Source of the DNA: a virus
IMG/VR virus record: IMGVR_UViG_3300031278_000004
Location: 1-38,877 of that record
DNA: 38,877 nucleotides
Strand: one strand, 5' to 3'
Made by a program: the position numbers and the translations under genes. Below, one piece after another: positions 5,689 to 35,367 of the stretch (position 1 is its first letter; the number at the start of each line of letters is the position of its first letter). The notes under the pieces were generated by a model. It saw only the letters and a program-made list of their open reading frames with translations. It was not told the origin of the DNA and made no database searches.

Positions 5689-5800
5689 CGTCATCTGCGC
5701 CATCTGCGGATGCCCTCTTGTCGTTCTATCAGTGTTTATCGGTGTCCACTCGTGCTTCGTAGCGAAGCCTACTTCGCAGAGTAGCATCCGTGGTTTCAGT
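5689..5800. repeat. Composite repeat cluster with a palindromic element
   Basis: Contains TCATCTGCGCCATCTGCGG, a TCAGTGTTTATCGGTGTCC unit and a palindromic element at 5750-5790 (CTCGTGCTTCGTAGCGAAG ... CTTCGCAGAGTAGCATCC). The palindromic element also occurs at 13681-13718, 27157-27200 and 31121-31172. No gene lies in most of 5545-5728. Confidence 0.7.
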
Positions 5801-6638: not shown

Positions 6639-6650
6639 GTGTCGCTCCTC

Positions 6651-9396: not shown

Positions 9397-9462
9397 AGGT
9401 CATTTCCCCATCTCACGCCACAGCGGGCCGCGTGCCTCGCATGAACCTGTGTGTATCTGTGT

Positions 9463-12443: not shown

Positions 12444-12466
12444 ATCACTCCTCCTCCACACTCTCT

Positions 12467-12494
12467 ATTATACAACATCAGTTGCGTTTGTCAA
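12467..12494 (-). promoter_or_regulatory. Leftward early promoter
   Basis: On the minus strand, a perfect -35 TTGACA (12494-12489) and a perfect -10 TATAAT (12472-12467) with a 16-bp spacer. It drives the HTH gene at 12443 and probably the early operon. The -35 box is one arm of the inverted repeat at 12489-12521. Confidence 0.8.
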
Positions 12495-12521
12495 GCGGCT
12501 TTTGCAAAAAAACGCTTGACA
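12489..12521. promoter_or_regulatory. Operator candidate: inverted repeat over both -35 boxes
   Basis: TGTCAAGCG (12489-12497) and CGCTTGACA (12513-12521), 9-bp perfect arms with a 15-bp A/T-rich centre. Each arm contains the -35 hexamer of one of two divergent promoters, so a bound dimer or tetramer could block both. Confidence 0.65.
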
Positions 12522-12544
12522 GACCAAACTTTTTCGGTTACGCT
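12516..12544 (+). promoter_or_regulatory. Rightward (lysogeny) promoter candidate
   Basis: TTGACA (12516-12521), then 17 bp, then TACGCT (12539-12544). The -35 is perfect and the -10 poor (3/6), as expected for a promoter that needs activation. It is 30 bp upstream of the 12574 gene. Confidence 0.55.
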
Positions 12545-12573
12545 TCCTAAGCCGCCGCGCGTCCGAGGGATTT

Positions 12574-12978
12574 ATGCACATCCGATGTCAAAAGCTCATC
12601 AAGAGCTTACGCGAGCGTGAGGGACTTACGGCCACTCAACTGGCCGAATCTTTGGGAGTCTCCTTGACGATGATAGCGAGATATGAAAACACCGATCCGG
12701 ACAAGCTGACGAAGTGGCCCACGCCTCAGCGTGTCGAACAATTGGTCAAGGCCCTCAAGGCCACGCCCCAAGAGTCTGCCGAGTTACGCCGCCTTGCGAT
12801 AGTCGCCCGATCGCCGGAAGCTGCTCACTATATAGAGACGAAGCTTTCAGAGGCGCCAGCAGTTTATTATACGGATCAACTTGACAAGGAACGCACCGCC
12901 CGGATAGTTTGGGAAAAAGAGGTCATGCGCCTTCGCAAAAAACTTGAAGACGCTGGGATTGATCCCGACCAGGATTAA
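12574..12978 (+). CDS. HTH (XRE-type) regulator, candidate repressor
   Basis: 134 aa. Residues ~5-60 form a classic HTH (LIKSLREREGLTATQLAESLGVSLTMIARYE). The remainder is helical (VEQLVKALKATPQESAELRRLA) and ends with a likely coiled coil (EKEVMRLRKKLEDAGI) that could dimerise it. There is no LexA-type autocleavage domain, so induction would not use RecA-driven self-cleavage in cis. It starts 8 nt after GAGGG. It is transcribed with the exported protein gene 12 bp downstream. Confidence 0.8.
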   Translation: MHIRCQKLIKSLREREGLTATQLAESLGVSLTMIARYENTDPDKLTKWPTPQRVEQLVKALKATPQESAELRRLAIVARSPEAAHYIETKLSEAPAVYYTDQLDKERTARIVWEKEVMRLRKKLEDAGIDPDQD

Positions 12979-12990
12979 AGGGAGAAAGTC

Positions 12991-13560
12991 ATGTCACGGA
13001 AACAGTACGTCTTGCTGCTGGCAGTCGTTGCGATCATGGGCCTTCTCGGCGGCGGCCTCGTGCAGATCAGCCTCCCTCGTGCCACGGCCCAGGCCGCGGC
13101 GGAGAAAGGCAACGAGGAAGCGCCCTTTCCGCGCGGCTATACCAGAGTGGTCACGACGCAGTTCCTTCAGATCGTGGACGAAAACATGAAGCGGCAAGCC
13201 TTCCTCGGTTACGAGGCCGACAGGATTCGTCTTACCCTGTTCGATGCGGAAGGTAGAGGCGCAATCGAAATGAGTGTGAAAAAACAAGGGGAGCGATTCA
13301 TCCGGTTTTATGATCCTTCCGGGCTGCCTCGATTGTCGTTGGTCCTTGACAAGGCCGTTCCTTCTCTTGCCGTGGCAAATACACAAGGAGTGTGTGCGGC
13401 AGCTTTGCGGGCTGACAAAGACAAAACTGCCATTCGTTTTTACGGTCCTCAGGACAAGGCTGGCTCTGTGCAGCCTCTGCTTGGCCTCGGAAACATCGGA
13501 GGAAAGGGCGCGCTTGTGTTCTTCGACAACGCAGGCAAGCCCGTGTGGATGGCCCCATGA
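12991..13560 (+). CDS. Exported or membrane-anchored protein, lysogenic conversion candidate
   Basis: 189 aa. Residues 1-34 form a signal sequence or anchor (MSRKQYVLLLAVVAIMGLLGG... ending ATAQA). The rest is a run of beta-strand units (FLQIVDENMKRQAFLGYEADRIRLTLFDAEGRGAIEM, then IRFYDPSGLPRLSLVL) resembling repeat proteins of the 'xLxLFDxxGxxR' type seen in many environmental bacteria; function unknown. The SD is GGGAG. Being co-transcribed with the repressor candidate, it should be made in lysogens, so host surface change or superinfection exclusion is a reasonable guess. Confidence 0.7.
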   Translation: MSRKQYVLLLAVVAIMGLLGGGLVQISLPRATAQAAAEKGNEEAPFPRGYTRVVTTQFLQIVDENMKRQAFLGYEADRIRLTLFDAEGRGAIEMSVKKQGERFIRFYDPSGLPRLSLVLDKAVPSLAVANTQGVCAAALRADKDKTAIRFYGPQDKAGSVQPLLGLGNIGGKGALVFFDNAGKPVWMAP

Positions 13561-13808
13561 AATCCGTGTCCATCCGCCTGTCCTGAGCGTAGTCGAAGGG
13601 TGTTCATCCGTGGTTCCCTTGCCGTTCTTTACATCCTTTGCGATGAATCGTTTCGGCTCATCGGCGTCTATCGGCGTTCACTCGTGCTTCGTAGCGAGAC
13701 TTCGCAGAGTAGCATCTCCGGTTCCCCTCATGTCATCGCTCTCCTCGTCCTTTCGTAACCAGGAACCTTCCGTCCTTTCCGTTCTTTGCGCCTTTGCGGT
13801 GAAGAATC
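13561..13808. repeat. Repeat array between lysogeny and tail modules
   Basis: No confident gene. Contains ATCCGTG-type units, CCTGAGCGTAGTCGAAGGGT (13580-13602), the palindromic element (13681-13718) and CCTTTGCGG-type units. The rest of the gap to 14010 holds a doubtful 45-codon frame and a CTCAGTGATCTCTGTGGCAG unit. Confidence 0.7.
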
Positions 13809-13946
13809 TTGGAAATCCTTGAAGCGATCAACACGGCGATCCTGACGGTCCTCATCTTCCGCCTCGCCTGGCGGTATCTGTGCGGGCAGGCGGAGTTCGA
13901 GCGGGATAAAAACAGCCTGCCAGAGAGGCCAAAGAGTTCTCAGTGA
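13809..13946 (+). CDS. Possible 45-aa membrane peptide
   Basis: A TTG-initiated frame (LEILEAINTAILTVLIFRLAWRY...) with one hydrophobic helix and a polar tail ending in PERPKSSQ. A weak SD (GGTGAAG) is close to the start and is part of a repeat unit. Nothing else supports it. Confidence 0.25.
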   Translation: MEILEAINTAILTVLIFRLAWRYLCGQAEFERDKNSLPERPKSSQ

Positions 13947-14010
13947 TCTCTGTGGCAGTCCTTTAGCCTTTAGCAGGCGAGACGCGGATTCGGCGATCGG
14001 CCGTCAAGCG

Positions 14011-14643
14011 TCAGTCATCGTTTTTGATCAAATCCTTGTTCCGGTCTATCATGGCCCGGGCCGTCTTGCGAGCGATGCCGGCCTCCTGATATTTTTGACT
14101 GAGCAGCTTGCGGAGATCCTCCTCCGTAATCGTGATCTTGCCATTTGCCGGGTCCTTGTACTTGTCCTCAAGCGCTTGAATTGTCGCCGTCTGGCCGACG
14201 GACACGCCACGCTCCTTCAACACCCGCCGCTGACGCAGAAGCCATGTCAGCCCGGCGCCGGCCACGGCCGTCCCCAGACTGACCCAACCAGTGTTCAGAA
14301 TACCCTTCTCCGCCGCGGTCACAACGAACTCGGCGACGGAGGTCTCGACTTTGGGAATGGCTGATGGCTGACGGCCGACGGCTGACGGCTGACGGCTGAC
14401 GGCTGACGGCTCACCGCTGACCGCCACTTGGCCCTGAGCTCGTGGCCGAAGGGCTGATGGCCGTTCCTCTGGGCCGGTCAGGATTCTCTCGGCGATCTCC
14501 GCACACCCGACAAGAATCGTCCCTGTCAGAACCGCTGCAGCGATCACCACGAAGATACCTTTCACTGCGCGGGCCTTGTCGTTGCCCATAAGCCCTTTTT
14601 CCGTTCTCTGCGTTCTCTGCGGTGAATTCGTTTCCGTTTTCAT
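14011..14643 (-). CDS. Predicted lipoprotein/membrane protein, possible lysis or entry function
   Basis: 210 aa. A hydrophobic segment (IFVVIAAAVLTGTILVGC, ~residues 30-47) ends in a lipobox-like LVGC. Residues ~70-95 are a repeat-encoded linker (SAVSRQPSAVGRQPSAI). A second hydrophobic segment (GWVSLGTAVAGAGLTWLL, ~125-145) is followed by a charged helical tail. Residues ~8-16 (PQRTQRTEK) also come from a repeat. The start overlaps the upstream stop (ATGA); Met19 is an alternative that brings the signal nearer the N-terminus. The position after the tail genes would suit lysis, but no family match is evident. Confidence 0.6.
   Translation of the reverse strand: MKTETNSPQRTQRTEKGLMGNDKARAVKGIFVVIAAAVLTGTILVGCAEIAERILTGPEERPSALRPRAQGQVAVSGEPSAVSRQPSAVGRQPSAIPKVETSVAEFVVTAAEKGILNTGWVSLGTAVAGAGLTWLLRQRRVLKERGVSVGQTATIQALEDKYKDPANGKITITEEDLRKLLSQKYQEAGIARKTARAMIDRNKDLIKNDD
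14358..14412. repeat. GGCTGACGGCTGACGG-type tandem repeat
   Basis: About seven units of GGCTGACGG/GGCTGATGG, in frame inside the lipoprotein gene. Related units are at 10136-10168, 27083-27115 and 32598-32630. Confidence 0.75.
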
Positions 14644-15020
14644 AGCAACCTCCTCACGACATAAAGAATGATGCCGATCAGAATCGGCATCGAGATACCC
14701 ACGGCGAACACTCGCCAGAAACGCTTCTCCATCAGGTCGAGATGCCGGCAGCCCGGCTTCTGACCGGACATGACGCCGTTGTAGTTTTGTTCGAGCTTGC
14801 CGAGCCGGTCATTCGACGCCTTCTGATGCGTGATAATGCTGTCGAGCATGTGCCCGATCTCGATCAGCGCGAAACTCTGCTGCATGTCCTGGCTGAACTT
14901 TGCAATCTGCTCGCGGGCGATGCGTTCGTGCGCCGTCCCCTCGTCGTCGAGCGCGTCGAGCAGGTTCCGGGCCTGGGTCAGGCCCAGGATCTTCGTGATC
15001 TTGTCCGCGCAACTGCTCAT
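14640..15020 (-). CDS. Tail-anchored membrane protein with helical ectodomain
   Basis: 126 aa. A helical region (residues ~10-85, including SFALIEIGHMLDSIITHQKASNDRLGKLEQN) is followed by a C-terminal transmembrane helix (VFAVGISMPILIGIILYVV) and a short basic end (RRLL). Its stop overlaps the next gene's start. Small C-terminally anchored proteins after tail genes can be holin-like or haemolysin-XhlA-like, and the coiled region plus C-terminal TM is reminiscent of XhlA. That is a weak suggestion only. Confidence 0.55.
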   Translation of the reverse strand: MSSCADKITKILGLTQARNLLDALDDEGTAHERIAREQIAKFSQDMQQSFALIEIGHMLDSIITHQKASNDRLGKLEQNYNGVMSGQKPGCRHLDLMEKRFWRVFAVGISMPILIGIILYVVRRLL

Positions 15021-15044
15021 TGTTCAGCCCTCAGTGTTCAGTCA

Positions 15045-15548
15045 TCAGTGTTCATCTGTGTTTATCTGTGGTTCGGCTTTCCGTGCAATTCCCCAACAGT
15101 CGGACCCATTGACAAACGTCGTGATCTTCTGCAATTCCGCGAGCCGAATGAGCACGTCCATGCCGTCCGGCAGGATCCGCCAGCAGTCGAGCGGATAGCG
15201 GTGGATCTCCCACTGCCAGGGGGCGGTGACAAACAACAGCCCGCCGGCCATCATCAGGCGCGCCATCTCCTTCATCAGCCGCCACGGTTCCTCGACGTGC
15301 TCTAAGACCTGGCCGCAGAGGATCACATCATACGCATCGCCCTGCTCCTGGATCAGATAGGGGCCAAGTTGGACCAGGTCCACGTTCGGCCCGGCCTCGG
15401 TATCGCAGCCGACGTATGTCCAGGCGGACGACAGCACTTCCCGATACGTGTGTGGAAAGCTGCGGTTCACGCAGCAGCTCCCCACGTCCAGGACGCGGAA
15501 CGGCTGACCCCAGGCATCGCCCAGATACGAATGGATCAGCGTTTCCAT
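15045..15548 (-). CDS. SAM-dependent methyltransferase
   Basis: 167 aa, class I Rossmann fold. Motif I is RVLDVGS, motif II region YVGCDTEAGPNVD, motif IV YDVILCGQVLEHVEEPWRLM and motif V region GGLLFVTAPW. It resembles small-molecule or glycan methyltransferases rather than DNA methylases. It follows two glycosyltransferases on the same strand, so it may methylate a sugar they add. The ATG at 15548 lies one base after the upstream stop; a GTG at 15572 would add 8 residues. The C-terminus (INTDEH) is repeat-derived. Confidence 0.8.
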   Translation of the reverse strand: METLIHSYLGDAWGQPFRVLDVGSCCVNRSFPHTYREVLSSAWTYVGCDTEAGPNVDLVQLGPYLIQEQGDAYDVILCGQVLEHVEEPWRLMKEMARLMMAGGLLFVTAPWQWEIHRYPLDCWRILPDGMDVLIRLAELQKITTFVNGSDCWGIARKAEPQINTDEH

Positions 15549-15549
15549 T

Positions 15550-16236
15550 TCACGCAACGAACTGGCGTGCACGATCGGCCCTCCACCGTTTCAGCGCCTC
15601 GCAACTCACGCGTCGAACGTGATAGACCCTGGCGTCGCAAGCGAGCAGCAGCGTCCAGCCAGCAGCGCGCAACTGCCGGCAGAGCGGCGTATCGGCCTTG
15701 ATCAAGGCCGGAAGCTGATGCCATCGGACATCGTCGAGCGCGGCGCGGCGCCACACCGTGCAGTTGAAGCTCACGCCCGTGCAATCGCGCACATGGGGAT
15801 CTCCATGCCACAGCGCGGCGCGCAACGCCCGGCCGTGGGTGGGCTCCGTGAGCCGCCCACGATGGTTCAGCGCATTGCACTCGACGGCAGCCACGAGGGG
15901 GTCAGAGGTGATCACGCGCTCCGCGATCTCGCGCGCGCCAGGTTGAATGAAGGCGTCCATCTCGATCGTCCAGACGAAGTCGCGGCTCGATTCCTCAACG
16001 GCTTTCTGGAGAAGCGGAATCATGCGCGGCGGCTCGCCCGGGCCGAGGTCGAGAATCCGCCAACCGCCGTCGCGCAGGGAGCCGCGCAGCCAGTCGGTGG
16101 CCCGGTCCACGGCCGCGATCCGCTCGACGTCCGGGAAGTGCTCGCGGGTGTTCGCCATGGATCTCATGGCGACGTCCGCCGCCTCCTCGTCGGGCGCGAA
16201 GACCGTCGTGATCACCGTTAGGTTTTGATCGCCCAT
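15550..16236 (-). CDS. GT-A type glycosyltransferase
   Basis: 228 aa. It opens with LTVITTVFAPDEEAA, has a DxD-like IEMDAFI near residues 92-98, then a conserved CTVWRRAALDDVRWHQLP. It is homologous to the GT-A part of the neighbouring 873-aa protein: both share GEPPRM/GHPPRM, the acidic IEMD/VEQD box, C-T-WRR-AL and an LKxAG/LRAAG segment. The two are therefore duplicates. The probable role is sugar transfer to a virion protein or a host surface glycan. It overlaps the giant gene by 19 bp. Confidence 0.7.
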   Translation of the reverse strand: MGDQNLTVITTVFAPDEEAADVAMRSMANTREHFPDVERIAAVDRATDWLRGSLRDGGWRILDLGPGEPPRMIPLLQKAVEESSRDFVWTIEMDAFIQPGAREIAERVITSDPLVAAVECNALNHRGRLTEPTHGRALRAALWHGDPHVRDCTGVSFNCTVWRRAALDDVRWHQLPALIKADTPLCRQLRAAGWTLLLACDARVYHVRRVSCEALKRWRADRARQFVA

Positions 16237-18839
16237 GCCCGGGTCCTTTCGGGCGCGACCCGCTCGACGCGGAACCCCTTTTCGAGTTCCTGGGCGAGCG
16301 GGCCGATGTCCATGCAGAATTCCAGACGCCCATTGTTGCGGAGCACGCGCCAGGCCTCATAGGTGAAGATTTCGCGTTGGTTTTGATTCAGCTTTTCCAT
16401 CCCGCCGCAAACGTAGATCTCGCGGAAGCTGTCGGCATCGAATGGCAGGGCGCCGAGCACCGGCCCCCACACATCGAGATCCTTGGCGCCGTTCCAGCCG
16501 AACCGAATGCCGCGCCGGTCCCAGATGTTTCCGCGGCAGCCGATTGCCAGCGTCCGCGCGCTTCCATGCAGACAGCGGCGAGCCGAATGAGGCAGATGGA
16601 CCGCCTGAATCGCATCTGTCATCACGCATACGTAGCCAGCGTGCTTCAGTTGATTCCCGATCTCGCCGTCCACGAATTCGAGTTCCGGGACGCGATTCCA
16701 GTTGATGTGTGCAAGGGCCGAGCGGCGCCACAGCGTGCAGCTCAACGTAGGCCAGCGCGGGATGCGCAAGTCTCCATGCCCAGCCCACGGCTTTGCCTCC
16801 GGCCAATCGCTCGTAAAAGGATACTCGGGCCGGCCATTCGCCGTAACTGATTTCAGATAGAGCGCGGCGACGCGATTTGGCAGCCTTCGCATGAGTGCAA
16901 TCGCTTTTTTGGCCTGCTCTGCCTTCAGCAGCACATCCTGCTCGACACTGAAAATATACTCGCCCTCCGAAATAGTCACCGCCGCGCGCAGCAGTTGGCC
17001 CATACGCGGCGGATGGCCCTCGCGGATCGTGAACGCGGTCAGCTTATCGGATGCAATGGCCAGCGTCAGAAGCGCCCCGGCATGATCAATCGGCACAATC
17101 TTTTTCCAGTCAGGCAAGGCCTTGAGACTATGGCTCAAGCTGGCCGCGGCCATCTGCTCAGTTTGTTTGTCGGGCGCATAGATGCAGGTAATGACAGTGC
17201 CCGGATGCTTCAGGGCCTGCCGCGTATCTTTCTGCGCAGCATGCACGATGCGCGTCAAAGCAGGCCCAGCATCGCAACTTCTGAACTGCCGCGACAGCCA
17301 CCAGTTGCTGTACCTGTTCCGCGCCTCACGATTGATCGCCGGCGCGCTCGCCGGAAGATCTGCCCACGATTGCGGCTCACAGAACACGTCGTGTCCCTGA
17401 AACCAGCTCCGGCCGAGCGCGACCACCGGCAGGTCGTTGAGCAGGAACTCGTTCGTCATGCTCGAGGAAATCACGAGGCAGTACTCGGCGTGCACGGCCA
17501 GTCGTTGATTCGTATCGTTCGGAACCTGCTCATGGCGAAAGACGTGCACGCCGTCCGGCCACTTCGTCAACGCATCGGTCTCTGGAGTACTGGGCGCCGT
17601 CTTCACGGCCAGTTTCAGCCCGCGCTTTTTCAACTCCTCGGCTATGCGACGGACCAGATCATTATGGTGTCCACGTGGCTGCAGGCGACAAAGGGTGCTG
17701 TATTGCTGGAGCCAGAGCGCGACGTACTTTCCCTGGATGAGCGGCGGCTTTTGCCGGGCTTCACGATAGCCGCGTGATACGCGCCGATGATAATCCCTCA
17801 GATCAAACGACAGCTTCTGCCAGTCAATGGCAGCTTCCGCCACGCTGTCCCATTCGGCGTGAATGGAGCTGAACCCGTTGCGCTCGTAACGGTCCAGCAT
17901 GAAATGCTGATAGTGGCCGAAGTATCCGAAGTCAACGCTGAGTGGCACGATGTTCCGGTCATAGCACCATTCGAGAAACTCCCGCCAGGGCCGCACGGCG
18001 CGAGCGACGCCATGCTCTTCCCACTGAATCACGGCATCGGGAATCCCGACCTGTCTGATCTTTTCCGGCAGGCCCATCAGCGGCTTTTCGAGGTCCATCA
18101 TTACATGCTCGATACGCCAGCCCTCGCGGGCGAACGGCTCGAGGAAAAACGTCGTATGCCGCTCCCGATATCCTGGCCGGAGGGCGAACAGCAGCGTCGG
18201 CGCGTCCTCCGCGGGCTGAGGAATATCCAGGCCGGGCACGTGGCATTCGGAGCATATCAGCGGGGTTAGAGGCTGCGCGTGGAACGGACAGGAGATCCTC
18301 TCATGTCCGCAACAGCCGTCCTGAGTGCGATAGCGGCAGGCCCGGAATTCTGCTTGGTGCGCGCGGTGCTGCTCCTCCAATCCAGCCCTGTCGAACGCCA
18401 GGGGGATGCCATGCTCATCGGCCAGCGCGCGAATCGTGGTTGCAATTCCCTCGAACGGAAGGCCCCCATGTTTTGTCTGGAAATCGAGCATCTGTTTCAG
18501 GAGTTGTTCTTGCTCAGGTTTATCTGATAACGACGCGAACTTTGCGAACGCCGCATTCAGGTCAAAGGGATTTGTCTCCTGGACCTGGGGCAGACAGCCG
18601 GCGCGAAGGCGCGCCGCGAGTCGCGCCTTGGCTAAGCGATTGAGAATTGTCCATTGACTCTCTGGCAGTTCGTGGTTTCGCTCGCGCTGACAGGCGATGC
18701 AGTCCTCGGCCATCACATTGCACCGGAACCCCAGGACACGGCTGAGCAGCCCGCACTCATTTGAATGCTCATGCCTCCGGCTGATGTGCCGGCACTCAAT
18801 CGTCTTCGGGTCAACTGTCTGACAGTCCTTGCAGCTCAT
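16218..18839 (-). CDS. Giant multi-domain glycosyltransferase
   Basis: 873 aa. (1) Residues 1-55 and ~165-200 are Cys-rich (CKDC, CIAC, CSEC) and may bind metal. (2) Residues ~205-550 resemble a GT-B/capsule-type transferase, including a LLFALRPGYRERH opening and AEYCLVISSSMTNEFLLNDLPVVALGRS, the 'stigma' of KpsC/KpsS-like and Kdo-transferase folds. (3) Residues ~565-775 are a GT-A domain like the next gene (VITCIYAPD, HPPRMGQLL, VEQDVLL, CTLWRRSAL). (4) The last ~100 residues resemble the second half of a methyltransferase (LPFDADSFREIYVCGG, EAWRVLRNNGRLEF) without a clear SAM motif I. It lies just downstream of the serine-rich repeat gene. Domain limits are estimates. Confidence 0.65.
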   Translation of the reverse strand: MSCKDCQTVDPKTIECRHISRRHEHSNECGLLSRVLGFRCNVMAEDCIACQRERNHELPESQWTILNRLAKARLAARLRAGCLPQVQETNPFDLNAAFAKFASLSDKPEQEQLLKQMLDFQTKHGGLPFEGIATTIRALADEHGIPLAFDRAGLEEQHRAHQAEFRACRYRTQDGCCGHERISCPFHAQPLTPLICSECHVPGLDIPQPAEDAPTLLFALRPGYRERHTTFFLEPFAREGWRIEHVMMDLEKPLMGLPEKIRQVGIPDAVIQWEEHGVARAVRPWREFLEWCYDRNIVPLSVDFGYFGHYQHFMLDRYERNGFSSIHAEWDSVAEAAIDWQKLSFDLRDYHRRVSRGYREARQKPPLIQGKYVALWLQQYSTLCRLQPRGHHNDLVRRIAEELKKRGLKLAVKTAPSTPETDALTKWPDGVHVFRHEQVPNDTNQRLAVHAEYCLVISSSMTNEFLLNDLPVVALGRSWFQGHDVFCEPQSWADLPASAPAINREARNRYSNWWLSRQFRSCDAGPALTRIVHAAQKDTRQALKHPGTVITCIYAPDKQTEQMAAASLSHSLKALPDWKKIVPIDHAGALLTLAIASDKLTAFTIREGHPPRMGQLLRAAVTISEGEYIFSVEQDVLLKAEQAKKAIALMRRLPNRVAALYLKSVTANGRPEYPFTSDWPEAKPWAGHGDLRIPRWPTLSCTLWRRSALAHINWNRVPELEFVDGEIGNQLKHAGYVCVMTDAIQAVHLPHSARRCLHGSARTLAIGCRGNIWDRRGIRFGWNGAKDLDVWGPVLGALPFDADSFREIYVCGGMEKLNQNQREIFTYEAWRVLRNNGRLEFCMDIGPLAQELEKGFRVERVAPERTRAWAIKT

Positions 18840-18860
18840 GCCTCAGCCTTCGGCATTTAG

Positions 18861-19814
18861 TTACGGCGAGCAGGCCGCCTCACACTCGGCCTTGCTGTCA
18901 TACGGTCCGCCAACGACCGAACAATAATTTGAACCTTCCTCAACTCGTGGCAGGCAGCCCGTCTCAAAAGGATATTGGAGACAGGGGTGATTTGTCCGAA
19001 CAACCGCCCCGGAACAATCTCTGCTGATATACTCCTCGTCCTTCCGGCAGTACCATTTGTTCTCGATCAGGCTGATCATGGCCGAAGATGCACGGCTGGA
19101 GGCCTTAGAGGATGCACGGCTCGACGCCAGCGATGATGCACGCGATGATGCGCGGCTGGATGCCCGACTTGAAGCTCGGCTGGATGCCCCGGACGAAAAA
19201 CCGCTGGATGCCCCGGTGGAGGCTTCGGACGATGCGCGACTCGATGCCCTGCTTGAAGCTCGGCTCGATGCCTTCGACGAATCCTTTTTTGACCATTCTG
19301 ACGAGCCGGCATTCGATGAGGCATTGCTCGAAGCGAAAGTTGACGCCCTCGACGATGCCCGCGAGGATGCTTTACTGGACGCATCTGACGACGCTTTGGA
19401 CGAATCCTTTTTTGACCATTCCGATGAGCCGGCATTGGATGATGCATTGCTTGAACCGTATGACGAGGCTTTCGATGATGCACGTGATGATGCTCGGCTC
19501 GATGCGCGTGACGACGCGTCTGAGGATGCGCGGTTTGATTGCCTGGACGATGCATCGCTCGACGCCTCTGAGGATGCCAGGTTTGAGCCCCTCGATGATG
19601 CGTCGCTGGATGCCTTTGACGAGGCGTCGCTCGATGCGTCCGATGACGCGCGGCTTGAGGCCCCACTCGATGCATCACTGCTGGCGCGACTCGAATAGGC
19701 CGCGATCTGCACGACGCCATCGCCCTTGTTAAATGCCATCAGGCCGGCGCCCAGCTCGACGACGCCATAGGTTCCCAGATTGCCGTTTTCGTCAATGAGG
19801 ATAATTGTTGCCAT
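18861..19814 (-). CDS. Serine-rich repeat (ASSx)n tail protein
   Basis: 317 aa. Residues 1-40 are a small beta-type N-terminal domain ([22 protein letters not shown]). Residues ~41-247 consist almost wholly of Ala-Ser-Ser-x tetrapeptides, x mostly Arg, Asp, Lys or Asn, with two copies of a WSKKDSS-containing block 41 residues apart. Residues ~250-317 form a Cys-rich domain with 7 Cys (256, 267, 278, 287, 298, 311, 315), unusual for a cytoplasmically assembled virion protein. The start at 19814 avoids an upstream TTG. It follows tail genes and precedes glycosyltransferases, so a glycosylated fibre or adhesin is the best guess. No homologue is known to me. Confidence 0.7.
19073..19692. repeat. 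12-bp tandem repeat tract in the serine-rich gene
   Basis: The ASSx coding region is a degenerate 12-bp tandem array (about 50 units). A block starting ATCCTTTTTTGACCATTC is duplicated at 19281 and 19404, an offset of 123 bp. Such arrays change length by slippage. Confidence 0.8.
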
Positions 19815-19816
19815 TC

Positions 19817-20371
19817 TCAACTGCCCTCAATATAGATCTCCGCGTGTCCCGGGGAAATTTCACGAAACCGCAAAAGCCCTTTGAGATACCAGGTTTGCGC
19901 GGCGACCTGCATATCGCCGGATCGGCTGCGCGTGAAGACGTGATCCGTGCGCCGGCCCGTAATTGTTACGAGCGCCGTGGCGCTCAGGCCGTCATCGGCT
20001 ACTTCAATAACCTGATCCACCCGCATCGGACCGGCCATGTCCTTGCAGGCATACCAACTTCCGCCCTTCGCGCCGACGCGATCGCCAGCGGCAAGCGACT
20101 GGCCGGCCTCGAGCTCGACGGTGACGTAGGCCTGGGCGCCAATGCCGCTGATGATGCGTCCGGGCTTCCCGGAAGGAATTTCGCGGCGAATGATCCCGAG
20201 CATCGTGATGCCGCCATACGCGGGCTGGCGGCCATTCAGGAAATTGTCGTCCGCGTCGGCGCCCGTGAGCTGCATGATGCCCTGGCAAGGAGCCGGTAAT
20301 GCGGATAGATTTTTCGCGCGAGGCCACTGGCCCGGGCGCGGGGCATAGGGGGCCGTGCGCTGATAGGCCAT
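19817..20371 (-). CDS. Tail-region structural protein, beta-rich
   Basis: 184 aa, function not recognised. It has strand-rich segments: [21 protein letters not shown], then [21 protein letters not shown], then [17 protein letters not shown]. The 'AGQxLxxGDxV...G' segment recalls capsid cement or head-fibre folds, but its place after the tail tip argues for a fibre-associated protein. The SD AAGGA precedes the ATG at good spacing. The serine-rich gene starts 2 nt after its stop. Confidence 0.6.
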
Positions 20372-20434: not shown

Positions 20435-22618
20435 TCACTCGCCCTCCGTCTGCCGGTAGGCGTCAGACGCCTGGGCCGCCCGGTTCATCTCGCGGACGAA
20501 TTCCGATTGTCCGACGTAGCCCGGGATGTTCATCGGAGCGACCCGCCGCCAATCCACATCCCACCAGGAGAGGTCTATAGTGGTCGTGCCACTCTCAAAA
20601 TCCCATGCCTGCTTCGTCACGACGCTATTAATCGGCACACTGAATGCGCCGCTGTTACAGGTCGCATTTGTGATGTATTTGCCGGGTTTGGCGAAGTCCT
20701 TGAGCTTGCTGATCTGCAACGAACCGGAGGCATGGGGGATGCCATACCACTCGCGGGCTAGAAGGGCGATGGCCCGCAGGCGGGGCGAATCGTCGCGGAG
20801 CAAGTACGCTACGATGCTGCCCTCATCGTTTTTCACCAGATTTGATGCATCGGTGTGAATGGAAATCGCCACAGGGGAACCGTCTTTATACAAGCCCACG
20901 TCGCTCGTGGCGATGATATACCAGAGTTCAGCATCTGGCACGCCGATTACCACCATGCGGTCGAAGTCGGCTGACGGGGCTGAGCCGCATTGCACCTCGA
21001 CCGTAAGGCGCTCATCGAGTTCGATGGCGACCAATGCCTTCAATCTCCAGGCCTCCCAAAGTGGAGCATCCTTGCTCGGCTCGTGACCCGCCCAGTCATC
21101 GGGGCTCGCGAACAGATGATTCGGCGAAAACTGAATCCGGAGGGCGGATCCTCGATCCTCCATGCTCACCCGCCCATTCGGGAAGTCGGGATCTCGCAGA
21201 TCATCAACGTACAGCCACCGGCCGGCTATCCAGGAGACGCTGTTTCTGTCGGTCTCCGGATGAGGGACAAGAACAAATGGCGCGCGGAATGGGAGCCCAT
21301 CTTTTCCCGTGTGCGTCCAGGTCGCGGGCCATCTGTAATCTATGCCTTCTTTCAGCGGCAGCCATCGCAACAACGGTCGCCCACAGGGATAACGGTTTGA
21401 AGCGAGGTAGCACAGCTTGCCGTTCAGAATGAAATCGTCATCGCTTCCAATCGAGAGGTTAGCCGGAGTGTTCCCGCCCCAGCCCCAGTCGTCGCGGATC
21501 CTGAACTTCGAGTACACATCCTTAAACCGCGCCGCAGCGCGCACGCGGTCGTTCTCCTCTCTTTTGAGCCAAGCCGGCCAATCGCTGTATCCAGCCACGT
21601 TTTTTGCGCCATCCTTGTAGGCCTGCTCATCCTCAGCCGTCCAGTCAGCGATGAGAGCCTCGTCCGCCTCGGGCTCCGCGCGGGCCCGCACGTTGAAGCA
21701 CGCCTTGATCCGCCCCCCCTGCACGCGGACTCGATCATAGACGCGAGAGTAACTCGATGACGTGAGGATGCGGCGTGGATCATGCTTCTCGCCCATGTCC
21801 ACAGCACCCTGCTCAGCGTTTTTTGAGAACGCCAAATCCCCGACAATTACATGCTCTGCGAAGAGACTGAAGATGTGGATCGTCGCAGTGCCGGCGCCGA
21901 TGGACCGAATGCACCAACCGTATCCGCGCCTCCGGTCAATGAGCTTGTTCAGCGCCTGGCGCACCGTCAGACCGTCGAGACTCACGATCTCCGTGATCTG
22001 ATCGAGGTCGTCTATCAGGCCGCCGAGCTCCCAGTCTGGCCCCTGAGCGACGCAGTAGTGGGCAAGCAGATATTCGAGGATGTTTTTGATCGTCCATAGT
22101 TGCGCGTTGTCCTCAAAGTACCAGGAATAGCCCGTCTGCGCGGTCCGATTTCCGAGAAGCGTCCCCCCCCGCTCGTGTGAGACGTTGAACGTCAGGGAGC
22201 GATGAATGTGATAGACGTCGCCCGTTGACTTCTTGCACCAGGAGCCCTCTATCGGCGTCATATCGAGGATATGATCGAGGCCGTAGGCGACGAATGTGCG
22301 AGTCCCGGTGGGATTCGCCACGTCGCGGCCGAGCTCCTCCGTGGTTTGGTCAATGACGATCCCTGTCCACTGAAAGTCCGGGCTGGCGCAGTCTATCTGA
22401 ACGTATTGATCGAGCAGGTCGAGCTTATCTTCGGCGGCGAACGTGTCGCGCTGCGCGAGATTGTGCTCGCCGAAATACTGCACGATGACGGCCTTGGACA
22501 TTTCGGGCGCGGCAACGTCCACGACGGAAACCGGTTTCAGCGTCGAGCGCTCGGTCCACGCCGCCGCCCAGGAGGCTTTTGTGTAGATTTTGATTGTCGG
22601 ATAGTCAGCGATGCTCAT
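20435..22618 (-). CDS. Large tail-tip/hub protein
   Basis: 727 aa. It begins with PTIKIYTKASWAAAWTERS and has a segment LDLLDQYVQIDCASPDFQWTGIVIDQTTEE typical of tail-tip proteins where beta-barrels surround the hub (gp27/hub-like 'YVQI...F.G.V'). A middle region (LDGLTVRQALNKLIDRRRGYGWCI) resembles the helical hub insert, and a long beta-rich C-terminus follows. It lies after the tape measure and a small tail protein, where hub or tail-needle proteins are encoded. No catalytic motif is visible. No SD precedes the ATG, which sits directly after a GATTCA-type repeat. Confidence 0.65.
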   Translation of the reverse strand: MSIADYPTIKIYTKASWAAAWTERSTLKPVSVVDVAAPEMSKAVIVQYFGEHNLAQRDTFAAEDKLDLLDQYVQIDCASPDFQWTGIVIDQTTEELGRDVANPTGTRTFVAYGLDHILDMTPIEGSWCKKSTGDVYHIHRSLTFNVSHERGGTLLGNRTAQTGYSWYFEDNAQLWTIKNILEYLLAHYCVAQGPDWELGGLIDDLDQITEIVSLDGLTVRQALNKLIDRRRGYGWCIRSIGAGTATIHIFSLFAEHVIVGDLAFSKNAEQGAVDMGEKHDPRRILTSSSYSRVYDRVRVQGGRIKACFNVRARAEPEADEALIADWTAEDEQAYKDGAKNVAGYSDWPAWLKREENDRVRAAARFKDVYSKFRIRDDWGWGGNTPANLSIGSDDDFILNGKLCYLASNRYPCGRPLLRWLPLKEGIDYRWPATWTHTGKDGLPFRAPFVLVPHPETDRNSVSWIAGRWLYVDDLRDPDFPNGRVSMEDRGSALRIQFSPNHLFASPDDWAGHEPSKDAPLWEAWRLKALVAIELDERLTVEVQCGSAPSADFDRMVVIGVPDAELWYIIATSDVGLYKDGSPVAISIHTDASNLVKNDEGSIVAYLLRDDSPRLRAIALLAREWYGIPHASGSLQISKLKDFAKPGKYITNATCNSGAFSVPINSVVTKQAWDFESGTTTIDLSWWDVDWRRVAPMNIPGYVGQSEFVREMNRAAQASDAYRQTEGE

Positions 22619-23018: not shown

Positions 23019-24689
23019 CTATTCTCCCGGCGGCGGCGTCACAGTTTCGGTTTTTGTGAGGTCGCTGCTTTTGAGGTTGACGTCAAGACCCTTCTTCAGG
23101 CGGTCGTCTATCTGTGCCAATTTTGAGTGAAGCGCTCGAAGATCTTCCAGACTCTCGGGTCGAAACTCGGGATGGGGCTCGATGCGGTAGCCTCGCGAGC
23201 GCATCTCCTCGATGCGACCTTCTGAAACTGCGAAAGGCCGGCCTTCTTCCTCGGCCGCTCCGACACCAAATGCCCCAGCTCGAAACTTGGTTGGATACAC
23301 TTTGTAAGGAGCAAAAGGAGCTTTGCTCTTGAGGCGAGAGAGAATGCCGAATGTAACATTTATGACATCCTGTTGGGTTCCAAAGACCGCCTCTTTCTCG
23401 AATTTCCATTTTTCCATTCGCTGTTCAATGTCGCTTACACCAGCCGCGCGCAGTCCCGCGACGAGCCTTGGCCGGATCGCACCGGCGAGCGCCTCGGGAG
23501 AAGTTCGGCGCATCTCCTCAGTGAACTTGTCCAAAGCCAGGCTTACATCCTTGACCGGCTGTACTCGTCCCTGTCTGATGTCGGCCATGTATTGCTCAAA
23601 GGCTCGCTCGAGTCCTTGTGCTGTCGGCGGAGTAATCGCTGTTTCCGCGGCCCTGAGCACACCCATGGCTCCGGGCTTTCTCAGAAGCAAGCCTTGGATA
23701 GCCTCCAGGACTTTTGCCTCTCCACCTATTTTCCCAAATATTTCTCTGCGCAAGCTGGGCGACGCCTTACGCAGACGTTCCTGAAGAGCCGCAAGCCGTT
23801 CCGGCCCGGTCGCGCCTGGTACTGGACCCCACGTGACGCGGCCGCGAGGTCCTTCAGTAGGATAAATGTCCTTTTCAAGACGTGTCATAAGATTGATTAA
23901 TCCTGTTGTCGAGAGTTCGCCAGTAGGATCAGCTCCCATCTGCGTGAAATAGGCTAGGAGTTCGCCTACACGTTCTGGGGTAAACCCTCGGGGTACTCCT
24001 GCCGCCAGAGCCTGTGCAAGTGCGCGCGTTTGAAGTCGAGGATCTACGATTCTTGCCGCTCGTCCGAACTGCCCGGCATATCCGTAGGCGCGTTGTCCCT
24101 GTTGAATACCAGTGAATCGCATGATGTCCATCAGACCACCGGCAAAAGGGCCTGCCTGAAATTCCGGGCCGATGACACCGCGAAGCGTCATGCCCACACC
24201 CAAGGCAGATTCAAACGCTGGCATGGGCAATGGACCTTTGGCACTCCAAGCGGGACCATATGCGCGCCATACTTCCGCTTGCGACACTTGGGCGCGCGTC
24301 GCTATCCGGCCGACAATGGCACCGGCCTCAGCACGCATCTCGCTAGGAACTTGATAAAGCGCGCCGGCACGAGCTTGGGCCAGAGATAACTGTGTTTGGG
24401 CGGCCTCGCGTTGGCGCTGGACGAGGTTCTCGTACTCACGTTTCAGTTGATTGACGATCATCATGACGCCGCCGACGGCGCTCCCGACGCCTGTCATGGC
24501 GGCCGCGAATCGCATGGCCTCGCCGCCCGCTCTGCCCAGGGCGCCCGCGGTGTCGTCTCCCGCCTTCTTGCCCGTGGTCTTGGCCTTGCTGAGCTGCCGC
24601 TGGAGTTTCTGCACCTGGCCGGTGAGCTTATCCACCTGCTGAATGGCTTTCGCCGCGTCGCCTTCAAACACCACCTTTGCTTTAGCCAT
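23019..24689 (-). CDS. Tape-measure protein
   Basis: 556 aa. The N-terminal ~100 residues are a long helix (KAIQQVDKLTGQVQKLQRQLSKAKTTGKK, then EYENLVQRQREAAQTQLSLAQARAG) with a hydrophobic Gly/Ala segment (GVGSAVGGVMMIVNQL). The rest is helical and Ala/Gly/Arg-rich and ends with a short polar tail. It follows the tail chaperone gene. At about 0.15 nm per residue it would set a tail of roughly 80 nm, an inference from the usual ruler relation. The start region has no SD and follows an AATGCAGAA-type repeat. Confidence 0.85.
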   Translation of the reverse strand: MAKAKVVFEGDAAKAIQQVDKLTGQVQKLQRQLSKAKTTGKKAGDDTAGALGRAGGEAMRFAAAMTGVGSAVGGVMMIVNQLKREYENLVQRQREAAQTQLSLAQARAGALYQVPSEMRAEAGAIVGRIATRAQVSQAEVWRAYGPAWSAKGPLPMPAFESALGVGMTLRGVIGPEFQAGPFAGGLMDIMRFTGIQQGQRAYGYAGQFGRAARIVDPRLQTRALAQALAAGVPRGFTPERVGELLAYFTQMGADPTGELSTTGLINLMTRLEKDIYPTEGPRGRVTWGPVPGATGPERLAALQERLRKASPSLRREIFGKIGGEAKVLEAIQGLLLRKPGAMGVLRAAETAITPPTAQGLERAFEQYMADIRQGRVQPVKDVSLALDKFTEEMRRTSPEALAGAIRPRLVAGLRAAGVSDIEQRMEKWKFEKEAVFGTQQDVINVTFGILSRLKSKAPFAPYKVYPTKFRAGAFGVGAAEEEGRPFAVSEGRIEEMRSRGYRIEPHPEFRPESLEDLRALHSKLAQIDDRLKKGLDVNLKSSDLTKTETVTPPPGE

Positions 24690-31253: not shown

Positions 31254-33875
31254 TTACGCCGTGCACTTCTGCATGCCGCGGAAGTCCAGCGACTTGCAGC
31301 CCACGTCGAGATACACGCGATAGCCGATGCCCAACACGTTGATGTCGGCCGTGATGCCGAACCGCTCGATGGTCGGCTCCTGCTTTCCGTTCAAGAACGC
31401 GACTTCGATGGTGTCCACGTCAGAGGGGTTGCCCATCAGGAACCAGGTGCTCGTGGAATAGCCGGTGTACGTGCTGTTCTCCAGCCGGCTCTCGGCCTCG
31501 AGGGTGAAGCGGCCCTTGTAGATGTTTTTCGACGGCACCTTGCTGTCGGTGCTGCCGGTCGCGATCAGGAACTCGCTGATCATGAGCTCGGCCGCCGTTT
31601 CCTCGAGGGTGGTCGGAACGAGCAGCACGGCGGGTTCGATGTCAATCGGGTCGCCGTTCTTGTCGGTCATGTTGCGGAATGCCTGGAGCGCGACGCCGAG
31701 CTTGCCTGCAGTGCCCAGCGCGCACGTGGTATTCAAGTTGTCATGATCGGCGTGGAAGAGCGCAGTCCCATCCTGCATGGCTGCGTTGGCCAGCAGGTGC
31801 GTATAGACGAGCTTGGCGATGAGCAGGCTGGCCGCGCGGCCCATGCGCTGAGGAGTTCGGGTGAAGACGCCGAGGTCGTCGTTGATCACGTTCTGGCGCG
31901 TGATATTGAACTGCTTGGCGTAGGTGGCGATGTTGAATTGCTCGTATTCCTCCTCGGCCCCACCATGCGCAACCTCGCCCGCGTTGTTGACCTCCTCCAG
32001 CTCGCCGGTATCGGTCAGCCTCGCCCGCGTCTGCGTCTTGAAGTCGGCGACCGAGCCGATGCTGCACCAACTCCGCCAGGTCTCGCGGCCCGTCTTGTAG
32101 CCCTTCAGCAGGGCCTTGTTGGCGACGGCCCCGAGGATCTGCGGGAGCGATGCCGTGCTGAACGCGGCGCGGATCATCTCCTCGCGTCCCAATGGCGCGT
32201 CGCGGCCGTCGAGCTGCAGACTGAGGCGGCAGACGTCAACGAGCGCCAGGTCGCGGAAGCGCCGAGCGCGCTCGGCGCGTTCCTCGCCATAGTCCTCGAT
32301 GACGATCTTGTCGTACTCGGCCGCGCGCAGGAGCAATGCGGCCTCCAGGTCCTCGCGCGCAGCGTTGCCATCGGGCGTGTGGATGGCGGGCGCACCAACC
32401 CCGCTCGCTCGCGCTTCGCGGATGCTCTTCAGGAACTCGGCCCGCGCGGTCTCGATGCTCGCGCCGGAGCTGATGAGCTTCTCGACGGTCTCCTTTGCGA
32501 TGTCCTCGCCGGCGTCCGCGCGGATGGCGGCGACGCGCTCGCCCTCGGCCTTTCGGGCCTCCGCCAACGCCTTCTGCGCCTCGGCCTTAAGTTGATCGCT
32601 GATGGCTGACGACTGACGGCTGACGACTGCCGTCTGATCGTCGGTTGCGTCGGCCTCACCCGACGCATCAGCCGCCGCGCGCTCCTGCTCGGCCTTGTAG
32701 TCGGCCTCCAACGCCGCGCGCTGGGCGTCGCCGAGGTCGTCGAGCTTGAAGCCACGTTCTTCGAGCCATTTCTCAAAATCCATGTCTCTGTCCTCCTGAG
32801 AAGAAACTTGATGCCGCTCCTGAGCGGCATCGCTTGCGGAACGAACTTTTGCCATGACGTCCGCCCCGACGGGGCAGACGGAATTCTCTTTCGGTTCCCA
32901 GTCGGTTGTCACGCGCACCGCGCGTTCTGCTGACGCGGTGAATTTGCGGCCGTTGATCTCAGCGGACTTGCCGGGATTGATCATGAGCGATTTGTGGACG
33001 CGATAGCCGATGGAATGGTCCGTCACATGGCCCTCGCGAATTTTGGTAAAGGCCTCCTGGGCATCGGCGACGGAACTGAAGTAGTCGCGGCCGATCAGTT
33101 TATCGCCCTCAATCCTGATGTCACGCGTCGAGCCGAGCTGCTTCTTGATCGTCGTGCGATCGTGGCTATCGAGCAACGGAATCTGCTTGGGCATGCGCGC
33201 ACCGCTCATCAGCAGGATTTCATTGACGAGGCTGAACGTGCGCAGATCCAGGGCGAGCGTCGGCTGCTCGCTGGCCATGACCGTCTCAACGCTGTGGTCC
33301 TCTTCGTTCAGGCTGCGCGGTTCGAGCGTATAGGCGCGAACTGTGAGTCCGGATTCTCCGCCTTCATCATTTTTTTGTCCCGGCTGCCCGGGTCCCGGGC
33401 GTTCCTTGCGTCGCATCTGGCCGCCGCACTTGGGGCATTTGAGGGTCGCGCAGTGCTGATCCGATTTCATGGTGTAGTGGCACTTGATGCACTCGCAGTC
33501 GTATTTGCCCTCGTCAGCTCTCTTGTCTGCGTCACGTGCCTGCTCGAACGTGCCTTTGTGATCTTTGCAATGGCTGCGAGCCTCGGACGGCGCCCAGTTT
33601 TTCTTCGGATAACGATAGGCCTGGTCAACCCATTTGCCGGTCGCCTTGAGCACGCTGCGGATAACGGAATAGACTTTGCCGCCCTTGCTTGCCGATTTTC
33701 GCTCGACCCGGACGTACTTGTTTTTGTCGCACTTTGCGGGGTCAACGAGTCGGCAGGCGTGCTCGTTGGGATAGGGACGGGATTCGATTGCGGATTGCGG
33801 AGCCAGCGACCGAATGGCGAACTTGCCGAGGTTGCTGTGATTGCGCGCCCTGCGCAAGGCCTTTTTCTTACTCAT
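31254..33875 (-). CDS. Prohead protease-scaffold-major capsid fusion
   Basis: 873 aa in one frame. (1) Residues ~30-115 are a phage domain seen in front of proteases (ACRLVDPAKCDK, KGGKVYSVIRSVLKATGKWVDQAYRYPKKNW). (2) A zinc ribbon (CECIKCHY...CPKCGGQMRR) lies at ~125-155. (3) Residues ~210-310 are a serine protease like HK97 prohead protease (LLDSHDRTTIKK with the His; HVTDHSIGYRV with the Ser). (4) Residues ~350-480 are a helical, Lys/Glu/Ala-rich scaffold, with an in-frame repeat linker (AVVSRQSSAISD). (5) Residues ~500-873 are the capsid protein (GYKTGRETWRSWCSIGS, then FNITRQNVINDDLG, FHADHDNLNT). The ATG at 33875 overlaps the portal stop. Confidence 0.8.
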   Translation of the reverse strand: MSKKKALRRARNHSNLGKFAIRSLAPQSAIESRPYPNEHACRLVDPAKCDKNKYVRVERKSASKGGKVYSVIRSVLKATGKWVDQAYRYPKKNWAPSEARSHCKDHKGTFEQARDADKRADEGKYDCECIKCHYTMKSDQHCATLKCPKCGGQMRRKERPGPGQPGQKNDEGGESGLTVRAYTLEPRSLNEEDHSVETVMASEQPTLALDLRTFSLVNEILLMSGARMPKQIPLLDSHDRTTIKKQLGSTRDIRIEGDKLIGRDYFSSVADAQEAFTKIREGHVTDHSIGYRVHKSLMINPGKSAEINGRKFTASAERAVRVTTDWEPKENSVCPVGADVMAKVRSASDAAQERHQVSSQEDRDMDFEKWLEERGFKLDDLGDAQRAALEADYKAEQERAAADASGEADATDDQTAVVSRQSSAISDQLKAEAQKALAEARKAEGERVAAIRADAGEDIAKETVEKLISSGASIETARAEFLKSIREARASGVGAPAIHTPDGNAAREDLEAALLLRAAEYDKIVIEDYGEERAERARRFRDLALVDVCRLSLQLDGRDAPLGREEMIRAAFSTASLPQILGAVANKALLKGYKTGRETWRSWCSIGSVADFKTQTRARLTDTGELEEVNNAGEVAHGGAEEEYEQFNIATYAKQFNITRQNVINDDLGVFTRTPQRMGRAASLLIAKLVYTHLLANAAMQDGTALFHADHDNLNTTCALGTAGKLGVALQAFRNMTDKNGDPIDIEPAVLLVPTTLEETAAELMISEFLIATGSTDSKVPSKNIYKGRFTLEAESRLENSTYTGYSTSTWFLMGNPSDVDTIEVAFLNGKQEPTIERFGITADINVLGIGYRVYLDVGCKSLDFRGMQKCTA
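32598..32630. repeat. GGCTGACGACTGACGG-type repeat inside the capsid fusion
   Basis: CTGATGGCTGACGACTGACG units, in frame, in the scaffold linker (AVVSRQSSAISD). Confidence 0.6.
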
Positions 33876-35367
33876 CGCTATCGTCCTCATAACTGCGTTT
33901 GGCGCCGGAGGCGACGTCTTCGATTGACAGGTTCAGTTCCGCCAGCTTCTTCCGTTCGCGGGCGATCTGCTCGACCTGCCGCTCCCAATCCTTCCCCTGC
34001 TGCGCGTATTCCTCGGCAAGGGTTGTGGTCAGACTTTTCAGGCGGATGTGCTGGGCGTTGGCCTCTTTGATCGGGTCAACGTGCGGTTTTTTGGTCCAGA
34101 ACCATTCGGTGGTGACGTTGCGCCGGTCGAGCCGCTGGCGACTCGGCAAATATCCGGGGATGAGCGACGCCTCACGCAGCCAGGCAAAGAATGCGCTGTC
34201 CCCAAAATGCAGGCCCAGCCAAGATTGAATCACGACTATTGCGCGAAAATACACCTGCCAGTCGAGGCGGCCGGAGGCATAATTGTAACCGCTGGAATTG
34301 GCGGCGGCGACGTTGAAGGGCATGTTGAAAGGGCGGGCGATCTCGTTGAGGATTTCGGCCTTGAACATCTTGTAAGTGGTCGGCGGCTGCTCAGCGGAGA
34401 AGCCGTGCGCTTTCCAGCCGCCGGGCAGCGTGAGCATGGCGTTCCGGGCGAGTTCGATCTCGTCCATTGACTCGACGTCCGCCGCGCCGGCGTCCGGCGA
34501 GTCGGTCTCCATGACCGCGGAGATCCCCGCGGCGGTCTCGGCGGCGTCTATGACAGCGAGCGTGTAGCGGCGGAGCTGCGCGAAGAGGGGGATCGAGGGC
34601 GTGATCCAGGGCACGCCGCGGATTTGGCCGGGGCGATCCACGCGAAACAGGTGCGTGACCTGGTCGGCGGCGATGGCTTCCTGATCGTCGGGTTTCATGT
34701 TGTACGTGCTGCCGGGGTGCTTTGTCAGGATGTAGTAGTTGATCGGCTTGCCATAGTCGTCCATCTCGATGCCATCGCGCACCTTTTCGGCACTTGCCAT
34801 CCAGGGCGATGAGAGGCGGTCGGGTTCAATCATAAGCAGCCGGAGATGCACGGGAATGCTTGAGGCGTCATCGGACTGAAAGAGGCGGAGGCATTCGCCG
34901 GATTCCATGAGCTGCATGATCGCCAAGCGAGCCATGGCCGCAAAGCTCAGGCGGCCGGCGCGGTCGCAGAGCTCGCTCCATTCGCGGAAGTCATTTTCGA
35001 TTTTCGTGTTCAGCTTGTCGTCGCCGGTTTTGACCTGGAGCGAGGGGCCGGTGCCGACGACGTCGTTGGCAAAGGTCTGGACGATGCCCTGGGCGTAGGC
35101 GTTGTTTCGGATCTCGTATCGTGCGCGGTTGCGCAGAGTCGGGAGGTCGGCGGAGATGAGGCTCTGGGCGTCCTTGCTGTCGGCCTCGACGAAGTGGGTG
35201 TCGAAGTGGCGTCCGGTGGCGGCGGCGTCATAAGAGCGGGCGCGTCCGCCGGGGAAGACTATCCGATTGCGGATTGCGGATTTCGGATTGCGGACTGCGG
35301 GCGGGGTCTTCGTTTTGCCCAGGATCGCGCGATTGATTGCCTTGTTGAGCCGATGGAATAAGCTCAT
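33868..35367 (-). CDS. Portal protein, lambda family
   Basis: 499 aa. The dodecameric ring at the packaging vertex. Typical segments are LISADLPTLRNRARYEIRNNAYAQGIVQTFANDVVGTG, then LAIMQLMESGECLRLFQ, MIEPDRLSSPW, and a late FNMPFNVAAANSSGYNYASGRLDWQVYF, a hallmark of lambda gpB-type portals. Residues ~20-35 (PPAVRNPKSAIRNR) are encoded by an in-frame CGGATTGCGGA-type repeat. The C-terminal tail is acidic. Its stop overlaps the capsid fusion start (ATGAGTAA). Confidence 0.9.
   Translation of the reverse strand: MSLFHRLNKAINRAILGKTKTPPAVRNPKSAIRNRIVFPGGRARSYDAAATGRHFDTHFVEADSKDAQSLISADLPTLRNRARYEIRNNAYAQGIVQTFANDVVGTGPSLQVKTGDDKLNTKIENDFREWSELCDRAGRLSFAAMARLAIMQLMESGECLRLFQSDDASSIPVHLRLLMIEPDRLSSPWMASAEKVRDGIEMDDYGKPINYYILTKHPGSTYNMKPDDQEAIAADQVTHLFRVDRPGQIRGVPWITPSIPLFAQLRRYTLAVIDAAETAAGISAVMETDSPDAGAADVESMDEIELARNAMLTLPGGWKAHGFSAEQPPTTYKMFKAEILNEIARPFNMPFNVAAANSSGYNYASGRLDWQVYFRAIVVIQSWLGLHFGDSAFFAWLREASLIPGYLPSRQRLDRRNVTTEWFWTKKPHVDPIKEANAQHIRLKSLTTTLAEEYAQQGKDWERQVEQIARERKKLAELNLSIEDVASGAKRSYEDDSDE
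35263..35300. repeat. CGGATTGCGGATTTCGGATTGCGGA repeat in the portal gene
   Basis: Units such as GATTGCGGATTTCGGATTG, in frame within the first 40 codons of the portal. Related units occur at 7816-7842, 30317-30360 and 33784-33801. Confidence 0.7.

Follow-up and report, generated by a model that had tools for sequence, protein, structure and literature searches.

A phage serine-rich repeat protein encoded beside soluble glycosyltransferases: a candidate glycosylated tail appendage

What do glycosyltransferases (GTs) act on when a phage encodes them directly after a protein made largely of serine repeats? The specificity of phage tails is usually ascribed to protein sequence. The locus that raises the question lies in a virus record of 38,877 bases (IMG/VR IMGVR_UViG_3300031278_000004), which is taken here over its whole length and is called the window below.

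Results

The module lies between tail genes and lysis-type genes

The window is the genome of a temperate tailed phage. Terminase, portal, a protease-head fusion and a decoration protein are encoded on its right side, an integrase, a C5 DNA methylase, ParB-like and recombination-directionality proteins on its left, and the minus strand carries nearly all of the genes (Table 1). Between the tail genes and the lysis-type genes sits a module of four minus-strand genes (15045-19814) for a Ser-rich repeat (SRR) protein, an 873-aa protein, a GT-A glycosyltransferase and a methyltransferase, separated in that order by 21, -19 and -23 nt. The position, single strand and short gaps or overlaps given in a preliminary description of this DNA were thus correct. 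Counted from the 184-aa gene upstream, the gaps are 2, 21, -19, -23 and 24 nt, the flanking genes being packed equally tightly. The 727-aa protein had no family match in the Pfam/PHROG profile comparison. A lone plus-strand gene amid the phage genes looks like cargo or a host gene.

Table 1 Positions of features in the window and of related genes at other loci
Locus	Positions	Strand	Feature	Remarks
Window	1734-2612		C5 DNA methylase	
Window	12991-13560	+	Lone plus-strand gene	hydrophobic N-terminal segment
Window	14011..15020	-	Two small proteins, probable lysis genes	one strong hydrophobic segment each, hydropathy 2.5
Window	15045..15572	-	SAM-dependent methyltransferase	175 aa; PF13489, E 1.1e-7; phrog_32762, E 8.4e-7
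Window	15550..16236	-	GT-A glycosyltransferase, GT2 type	228 aa; PF13641, E 1.2e-7; no membrane segment
Window	16218..18839	-	873-aa protein	Cys-rich N-terminal half; possible GT-B part; GT-A domain ~548-749; possible methyltransferase remnant
Window	18861..19814	-	SRR protein	317 aa; N-terminal part of ~43 residues; ASSx repeat 44-246; 7-Cys C-terminal domain WYC...
Window	19817..20371	-	184-aa protein	directly upstream of the SRR gene, 2-nt gap
Window	20435..22618	-	727-aa protein, probable distal tail component	position after tape measure gene
Window	23019..24689	-	Probable tape measure protein	556 aa; helical N-terminus and gene order
Window	31254..33890	-	Head maturation protease fused to major head protein	878 aa; phrog_4523, E 3.9e-130
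L015	about 9052-9455		Small conserved protein	
L003	5764-6219		Small conserved protein	
L013	1329-1772		Small conserved protein	
L040	9466-10038		Small conserved protein	
L032	5281-6279		GDP-mannose 4,6-dehydratase	
L062	8409-11057		GT25-sulfotransferase homologue	with 12274-18345
L064	7097-9073		GT25-sulfotransferase homologue	with 1-7561
L102	3028-3756		Radical SAM protein	between GT4 and GT2 genes
L114	10554-11315		Radical SAM protein	between GT4 and GT2 genes
L108	9937-11082		Hint-like Ser/Gly-rich protein	
L134	9782-10849		Hint-like Ser/Gly-rich protein	
L141	9949-11316		Hint-like Ser/Gly-rich protein	
L142	10025-11503		Hint-like Ser/Gly-rich protein	
L112	2106-3218		GT9-like gene	
L116	12196-13308		GT9-like gene	
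L138	2295-3407		GT9-like gene	

The serine repeat is maintained at the protein level

The SRR protein contains 103 Ser, 52 Ala and 7 Cys. Its repeat region, described at first as some 200 residues of Ala-Ser-Ser-x ahead of a 7-Cys end, measures 203 residues with 94 Ser and comprises about fifty repeats, whose fourth position holds varied, mostly charged residues. Among 40 ASS/AST units the second Ser is encoded by TCN 20 times and by AGY 18 times. Because these two codon families cannot interconvert by one silent step and yet both are used, the serines are held by selection. The same units diverge by 35% in DNA versus 3% in amino acids at the A-S-S positions, the latter figure being biased downward by picking units by motif; unconstrained mutation at that DNA divergence would be expected to change about 57% of these residues. 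ASSx is a repeat of the protein, and an artefact of repeated DNA is excluded. Within the gene, a 123-nt DNA unit also occurs three times, at 62-72% identity to the reference, and shows older duplication.

No signal peptide or hydrophobic N-terminal segment was found in the SRR protein (maximum hydropathy 0.86), and a motif check gave no LPXTG. A Kunitz fold was considered for the Cys domain, whose C-x12-C-x3-C end spacing is that of Kunitz domains, and was dropped when no solved structure matched.

The enzymes are soluble and lack close relatives

The 228-aa GT-A enzyme and the 175-aa methyltransferase both score above the Pfam cut-offs for their families. As the preliminary description had it, the GT-A enzyme has a paralogue within the 873-aa protein (residues 535-749, 27% identity, E 8.6e-23), and the methyltransferase is a gene of its own. 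A two-sequence profile of both GT-A domains matched the TarS-type glycosyltransferase 5tze weakly (E 0.0055). Each domain has a putative ExD motif, EMD in the GT-A enzyme and EQD in the 873-aa protein. Of the three parts proposed for the 873-aa protein, only the GT-A part held up: the GT-B-like part had no relevant Pfam match, the C-terminus resembled methyltransferases weakly (E 0.15-0.2), and the parts outside GT-A gave no significant relevant match. AlphaFold models of the GT-A enzyme and the 873-aa protein were unusable (pLDDT 34 and 36), because homologues are lacking.

By hydropathy, none of the three enzymes has a membrane segment. That they glycosylate bases of the phage DNA is very improbable: the GT genes stand among structural genes and adjoin the Ser-repeat protein, and no nucleotide-modification gene was recognised beside them, even though the window encodes a C5 DNA methylase and some viruses use GTs to hypermodify DNA (Pyle et al. 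2024, as summarised in PMC12619734).

Viral contigs contained no close relatives of the 873-aa protein, the GT-A enzyme, the alignment of its paralogues, the 727-aa protein or the terminase. Searches of phages, plasmids and 392 Planctomycetota genomes returned nothing for the 873-aa protein, and phages likewise gave no match to the GT-A enzyme. Since the module is without close relatives, the linkage of repeat protein and enzymes was tested in other phages.

The Cys domain recurs downstream of tail genes

Degenerate DNA searches for GPY...EC...C revealed a WYC...GPYx[ST]xxECxxxC domain common to proteins of several distinct, unrelated phage types, encoded downstream of tail genes wherever gene order was visible. 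The window domain conforms to this pattern, in which W Y C, G P, E C and C are invariant (alignment A2). In the window's own lineage (L007 and L010; portal 39-43%, head protein about 30% identity), the protein has the Cys domain and lacks the Ser repeat, and its neighbour is a GDSL esterase, with no GT. Around Cys-domain proteins without Ser repeats, none of 68 ORFs was a Pfam glycosyltransferase. Phage L032 has a GDP-mannose 4,6-dehydratase gene and arrays of small GPY-Cys proteins, without Ser repeats. In Planctomycetota genomes the Cys-domain profile gave a single match (L025), judged to be chance, and the matches of a pattern scan of genome contigs were judged chance or unrelated.

The pairing reappears in L015, a complete 34-kb phage unrelated to the window, with its own head and integrase genes and a contig that appears circular because the tape-measure gene spans its ends. 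Poly-Ser stretches connect the five Cys domains of its protein. Downstream come genes for a poly-Ser/Cys protein, a small conserved protein, a GT25-sulfotransferase and an enzyme resembling GT8, called from motifs alone (LQLDADMLIRDD, NGGFF, HFTGRKL) and confirmed as GT8 by no database match. Several phages and one Planctomycetota prophage encode this small protein (MITCHxxHLxxRCxxRGYTLxEVMPCVV...GTELKxLLxxxGI...CxCNxRA) after their tail Cys proteins.

Planctomycetota prophages carry Ser-rich tail genes with varied enzyme cassettes

Of 392 Planctomycetota genomes, 10 encode homologues of the L015 GT25-sulfotransferase. Genome G226 has three prophages (L060, L061 and L063) in which such a homologue directly follows a Ser-rich tail protein, with a GT32 gene preceding the SRR gene in the first two. 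Other cassettes consist of GT4, radical SAM and GT2 genes (L102 and L114, with GT4 proteins 68% identical across two genomes), of a pyruvyltransferase-like gene and GT2 (L119), or of GT2 and two GT-like genes (L117). The radical SAM protein could act on the glycan or on the Ser-rich protein. At L108, L134, L141 and L142 the Ser-rich arms form a separate protein, split by a Hint-like (intein-type) domain, so that it may process itself. Directly upstream of its gene lie those for a methyltransferase and an MptE/CST-I-like protein (E 0.0013, short of the cut-off). L142 has two GT32-like genes as well; the other three loci have no GT above the Pfam cut-off, only the methyltransferase and this weak match.

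Outside recognisable prophages, two GT25-sulfotransferase homologues (L062 and L064) adjoin very large Pro/Ser-repeat proteins (PSPSVN or SSPP), and such pairing may extend to host surface proteins. The GT25-only proteins L066-L068 lack a Ser-rich neighbour.

The window's head protein is 37-40% identical over 218-334 residues to the heads of several prophages, L141 among them, and matches in 23 loci altogether. Because of this likeness to Planctomycetota prophage heads, the host is probably an uncultured planctomycete.

Recurrence of the pairing bears on whether the enzymes instead alter host surface polysaccharide after lysogeny, for example to block superinfection. The phage has an integrase and is temperate, and conversion of host surfaces by phage GTs is well known (PMC12619734). 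Against this, the genes lie within the late structural run and not beside the integrase, all module enzymes are soluble, no membrane GT or flippase-like gene adjoins them, and other phages repeat their association with a Ser-rich tail gene; we regard lysogenic conversion as improbable.

GT genes are enriched beside Ser-rich members of a tail-tip family

The three G226 prophage SRR proteins and the L007 protein share an N-terminal domain (NDTGxDLxRFxxVGI, alignment A8), members of which were found in 36 of 392 Planctomycetota genomes. A profile search with hmmsearch did not detect the domain in any ORF of the window (best E 2.1), and the idea that the 184-aa protein is its split-off counterpart was rejected, the profile giving no match.

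We examined 63 loci of this tail-tip family. Peak Ser content per 50 residues was bimodal, at 0.40-0.78 in 8 loci and at most 0.20 in the others, except for L103 (0.34); a 0.30 entry for L134 comes from a different frame. Collapsing near-identical tail genes and requiring flanks left 6 loci with fused SRR proteins and 26 others. A Pfam GT neighboured all six of the former versus 6/26 of the latter (Fisher one-sided p 0.001, with the Ser threshold fixed post hoc on data already seen and GTs in the SRR group assigned per gene from Pfam tallies and sequence reading). The p value was 0.0004 with the GT9 clade collapsed and 0.003 with one SRR locus per genome. When Ser-rich proteins encoded by a gene of their own were included under a strict 3-gene rule, it was 0.026, or 0.006 with the L142 GT32 genes. 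The preliminary description had tied the enzymes to the repeat protein. The pairing does recur (L015, L060, L061, L063, L102, L114, L117, L119 and L142), through indirect relatives with non-homologous transferases; it is not exclusive, as the 6/26 controls show.

These six are a GT9 clade (L112, L116 and L138) and L111, L143 and L151; a Ser-rich frame in L151 was discarded, as it overlaps the tail gene out of frame. The tail fibres that precede the GT9-like genes of the clade are poor in Ser and carry repeated GDLTGTTANAQI-type motifs, and tail-linked GTs are therefore not confined to Ser-rich proteins. The window enzymes might likewise glycosylate the tail tube, the capsid or another fibre and leave the Ser-rich protein as an unmodified flexible spacer, as the glycosylated capsid and tail tube of mycobacteriophages would suggest. 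We think this unlikely, if less so than the readings above, given the enrichment of GT neighbours at Ser-rich members and the GT start often lying a few bases from the SRR stop (in L060, the SRR gene ends at 8537 and the GT gene starts at 8534).

Discussion

The reading we favour, with reasonable but incomplete confidence, is that the ASSx repeat is glycosylated by the adjacent enzymes to give a mucin-like tail appendage. The SRR protein, which has no export signal, would be synthesised in the cytosol and attach to the tail tip by its N-terminal part. The repeat of about 200 residues would form an extended stalk presenting about 94 serines, capped at its distal end by the 7-Cys domain. Either before assembly or in its course, the adjacent soluble GT-A enzymes would place O-linked sugars on the stalk and lengthen them, perhaps with the help of other domains of the 873-aa protein, and the methyltransferase would probably cap the glycan. 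Such a coat would probably tune adsorption or shield the tail. From the genes we infer the location of the protein in the virion, serine as the acceptor, the identity of the sugar and the biological role.

The linkage evidence comes from analogous, not homologous, enzyme sets. Because other phages retain a Ser-rich stalk with different enzymes, the sugar coat seems to vary more than the scaffold, and this combination of a constant scaffold and changing enzymes is consistent with the SRR protein bearing the glycan. A broader proposal, for which we see the chances as evenly balanced, is that Planctomycetota phages share a recurring glycosylated-tail system: a mucin-like tip protein paired with soluble enzymes that form an exchangeable cassette (GT2, GT4, GT25-sulfotransferase, GT32, methyltransferase, radical SAM), in which enzyme swaps rather than fibre changes diversify adsorption or shielding. 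If stalk chemistry is set by neighbouring enzymes, tails would gain a second fast-changing layer of sugar, perhaps with sulfate and methyl groups. The module would also offer a compact, testable kit for cytosolic O-glycosylation on a simple repeat. We found no description of the pairing in Planctomycetota phages in the literature searched, which took in few subscription papers; it appears to be a recurrent, undescribed feature of these phages.

How does the module compare with known systems? The genes for SRR adhesins of Gram-positive bacteria are accompanied by those for two to ten GTs and a dedicated Sec system (PMC6973325), and glycosylation of one such adhesin, Fap1, has been reconstituted stepwise in E. 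coli (PMC5207161). As in Fap1, GspB and the L. reuteri SRRP, the window's Ser-repeat gene, with its long Ser-rich region, adjoins several soluble GTs; adhesin glycosylation is cytosolic, and the Fap1 set includes a bifunctional GT (dGT1). The window protein lacks the long signal peptide, accessory Sec domain, LPXTG and binding region between repeats, and no Pfam match to SecA2, SecY2 or Asp was found among the flanking genes scanned. The likeness to bacterial adhesins drawn in the preliminary description therefore stands for the repeat and the GT cluster, as an analogy and not as membership; unlike the adhesin sets, this one is phage-borne among tail genes and has different GTs and a methyltransferase.

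The mycobacteriophages Che8, Corndog and Myrna encode GTs that glycosylate their capsid and tail tube, the glycans sitting at the C-termini of the subunits (Freeman et al. 2023, as described in PMC12363180 and PMC12619734). The window phage, too, encodes a glycosyltransferase of its own (PF13641) and a paralogue within the 873-aa protein; in contrast to the mycobacteriophages, it has a dedicated, putatively glycosylated Ser-repeat protein encoded next to the enzymes. Further counterparts are the modules of L015 and the Planctomycetota prophages, where a Ser-rich tail-region protein with adjacent GTs takes an equivalent genomic position. These differ from the window in their GT25-sulfotransferase, GT32, GT4 and GT2 families, some with sulfotransferase or radical SAM, and the prophages in a tail-tip N-terminal domain undetectable in the window. 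L015, with its GT25-sulfotransferase and GT8-like enzyme in place of the window's GT2-type enzyme, 873-aa protein and methyltransferase, additionally shares the WYC/GPY Cys domain.
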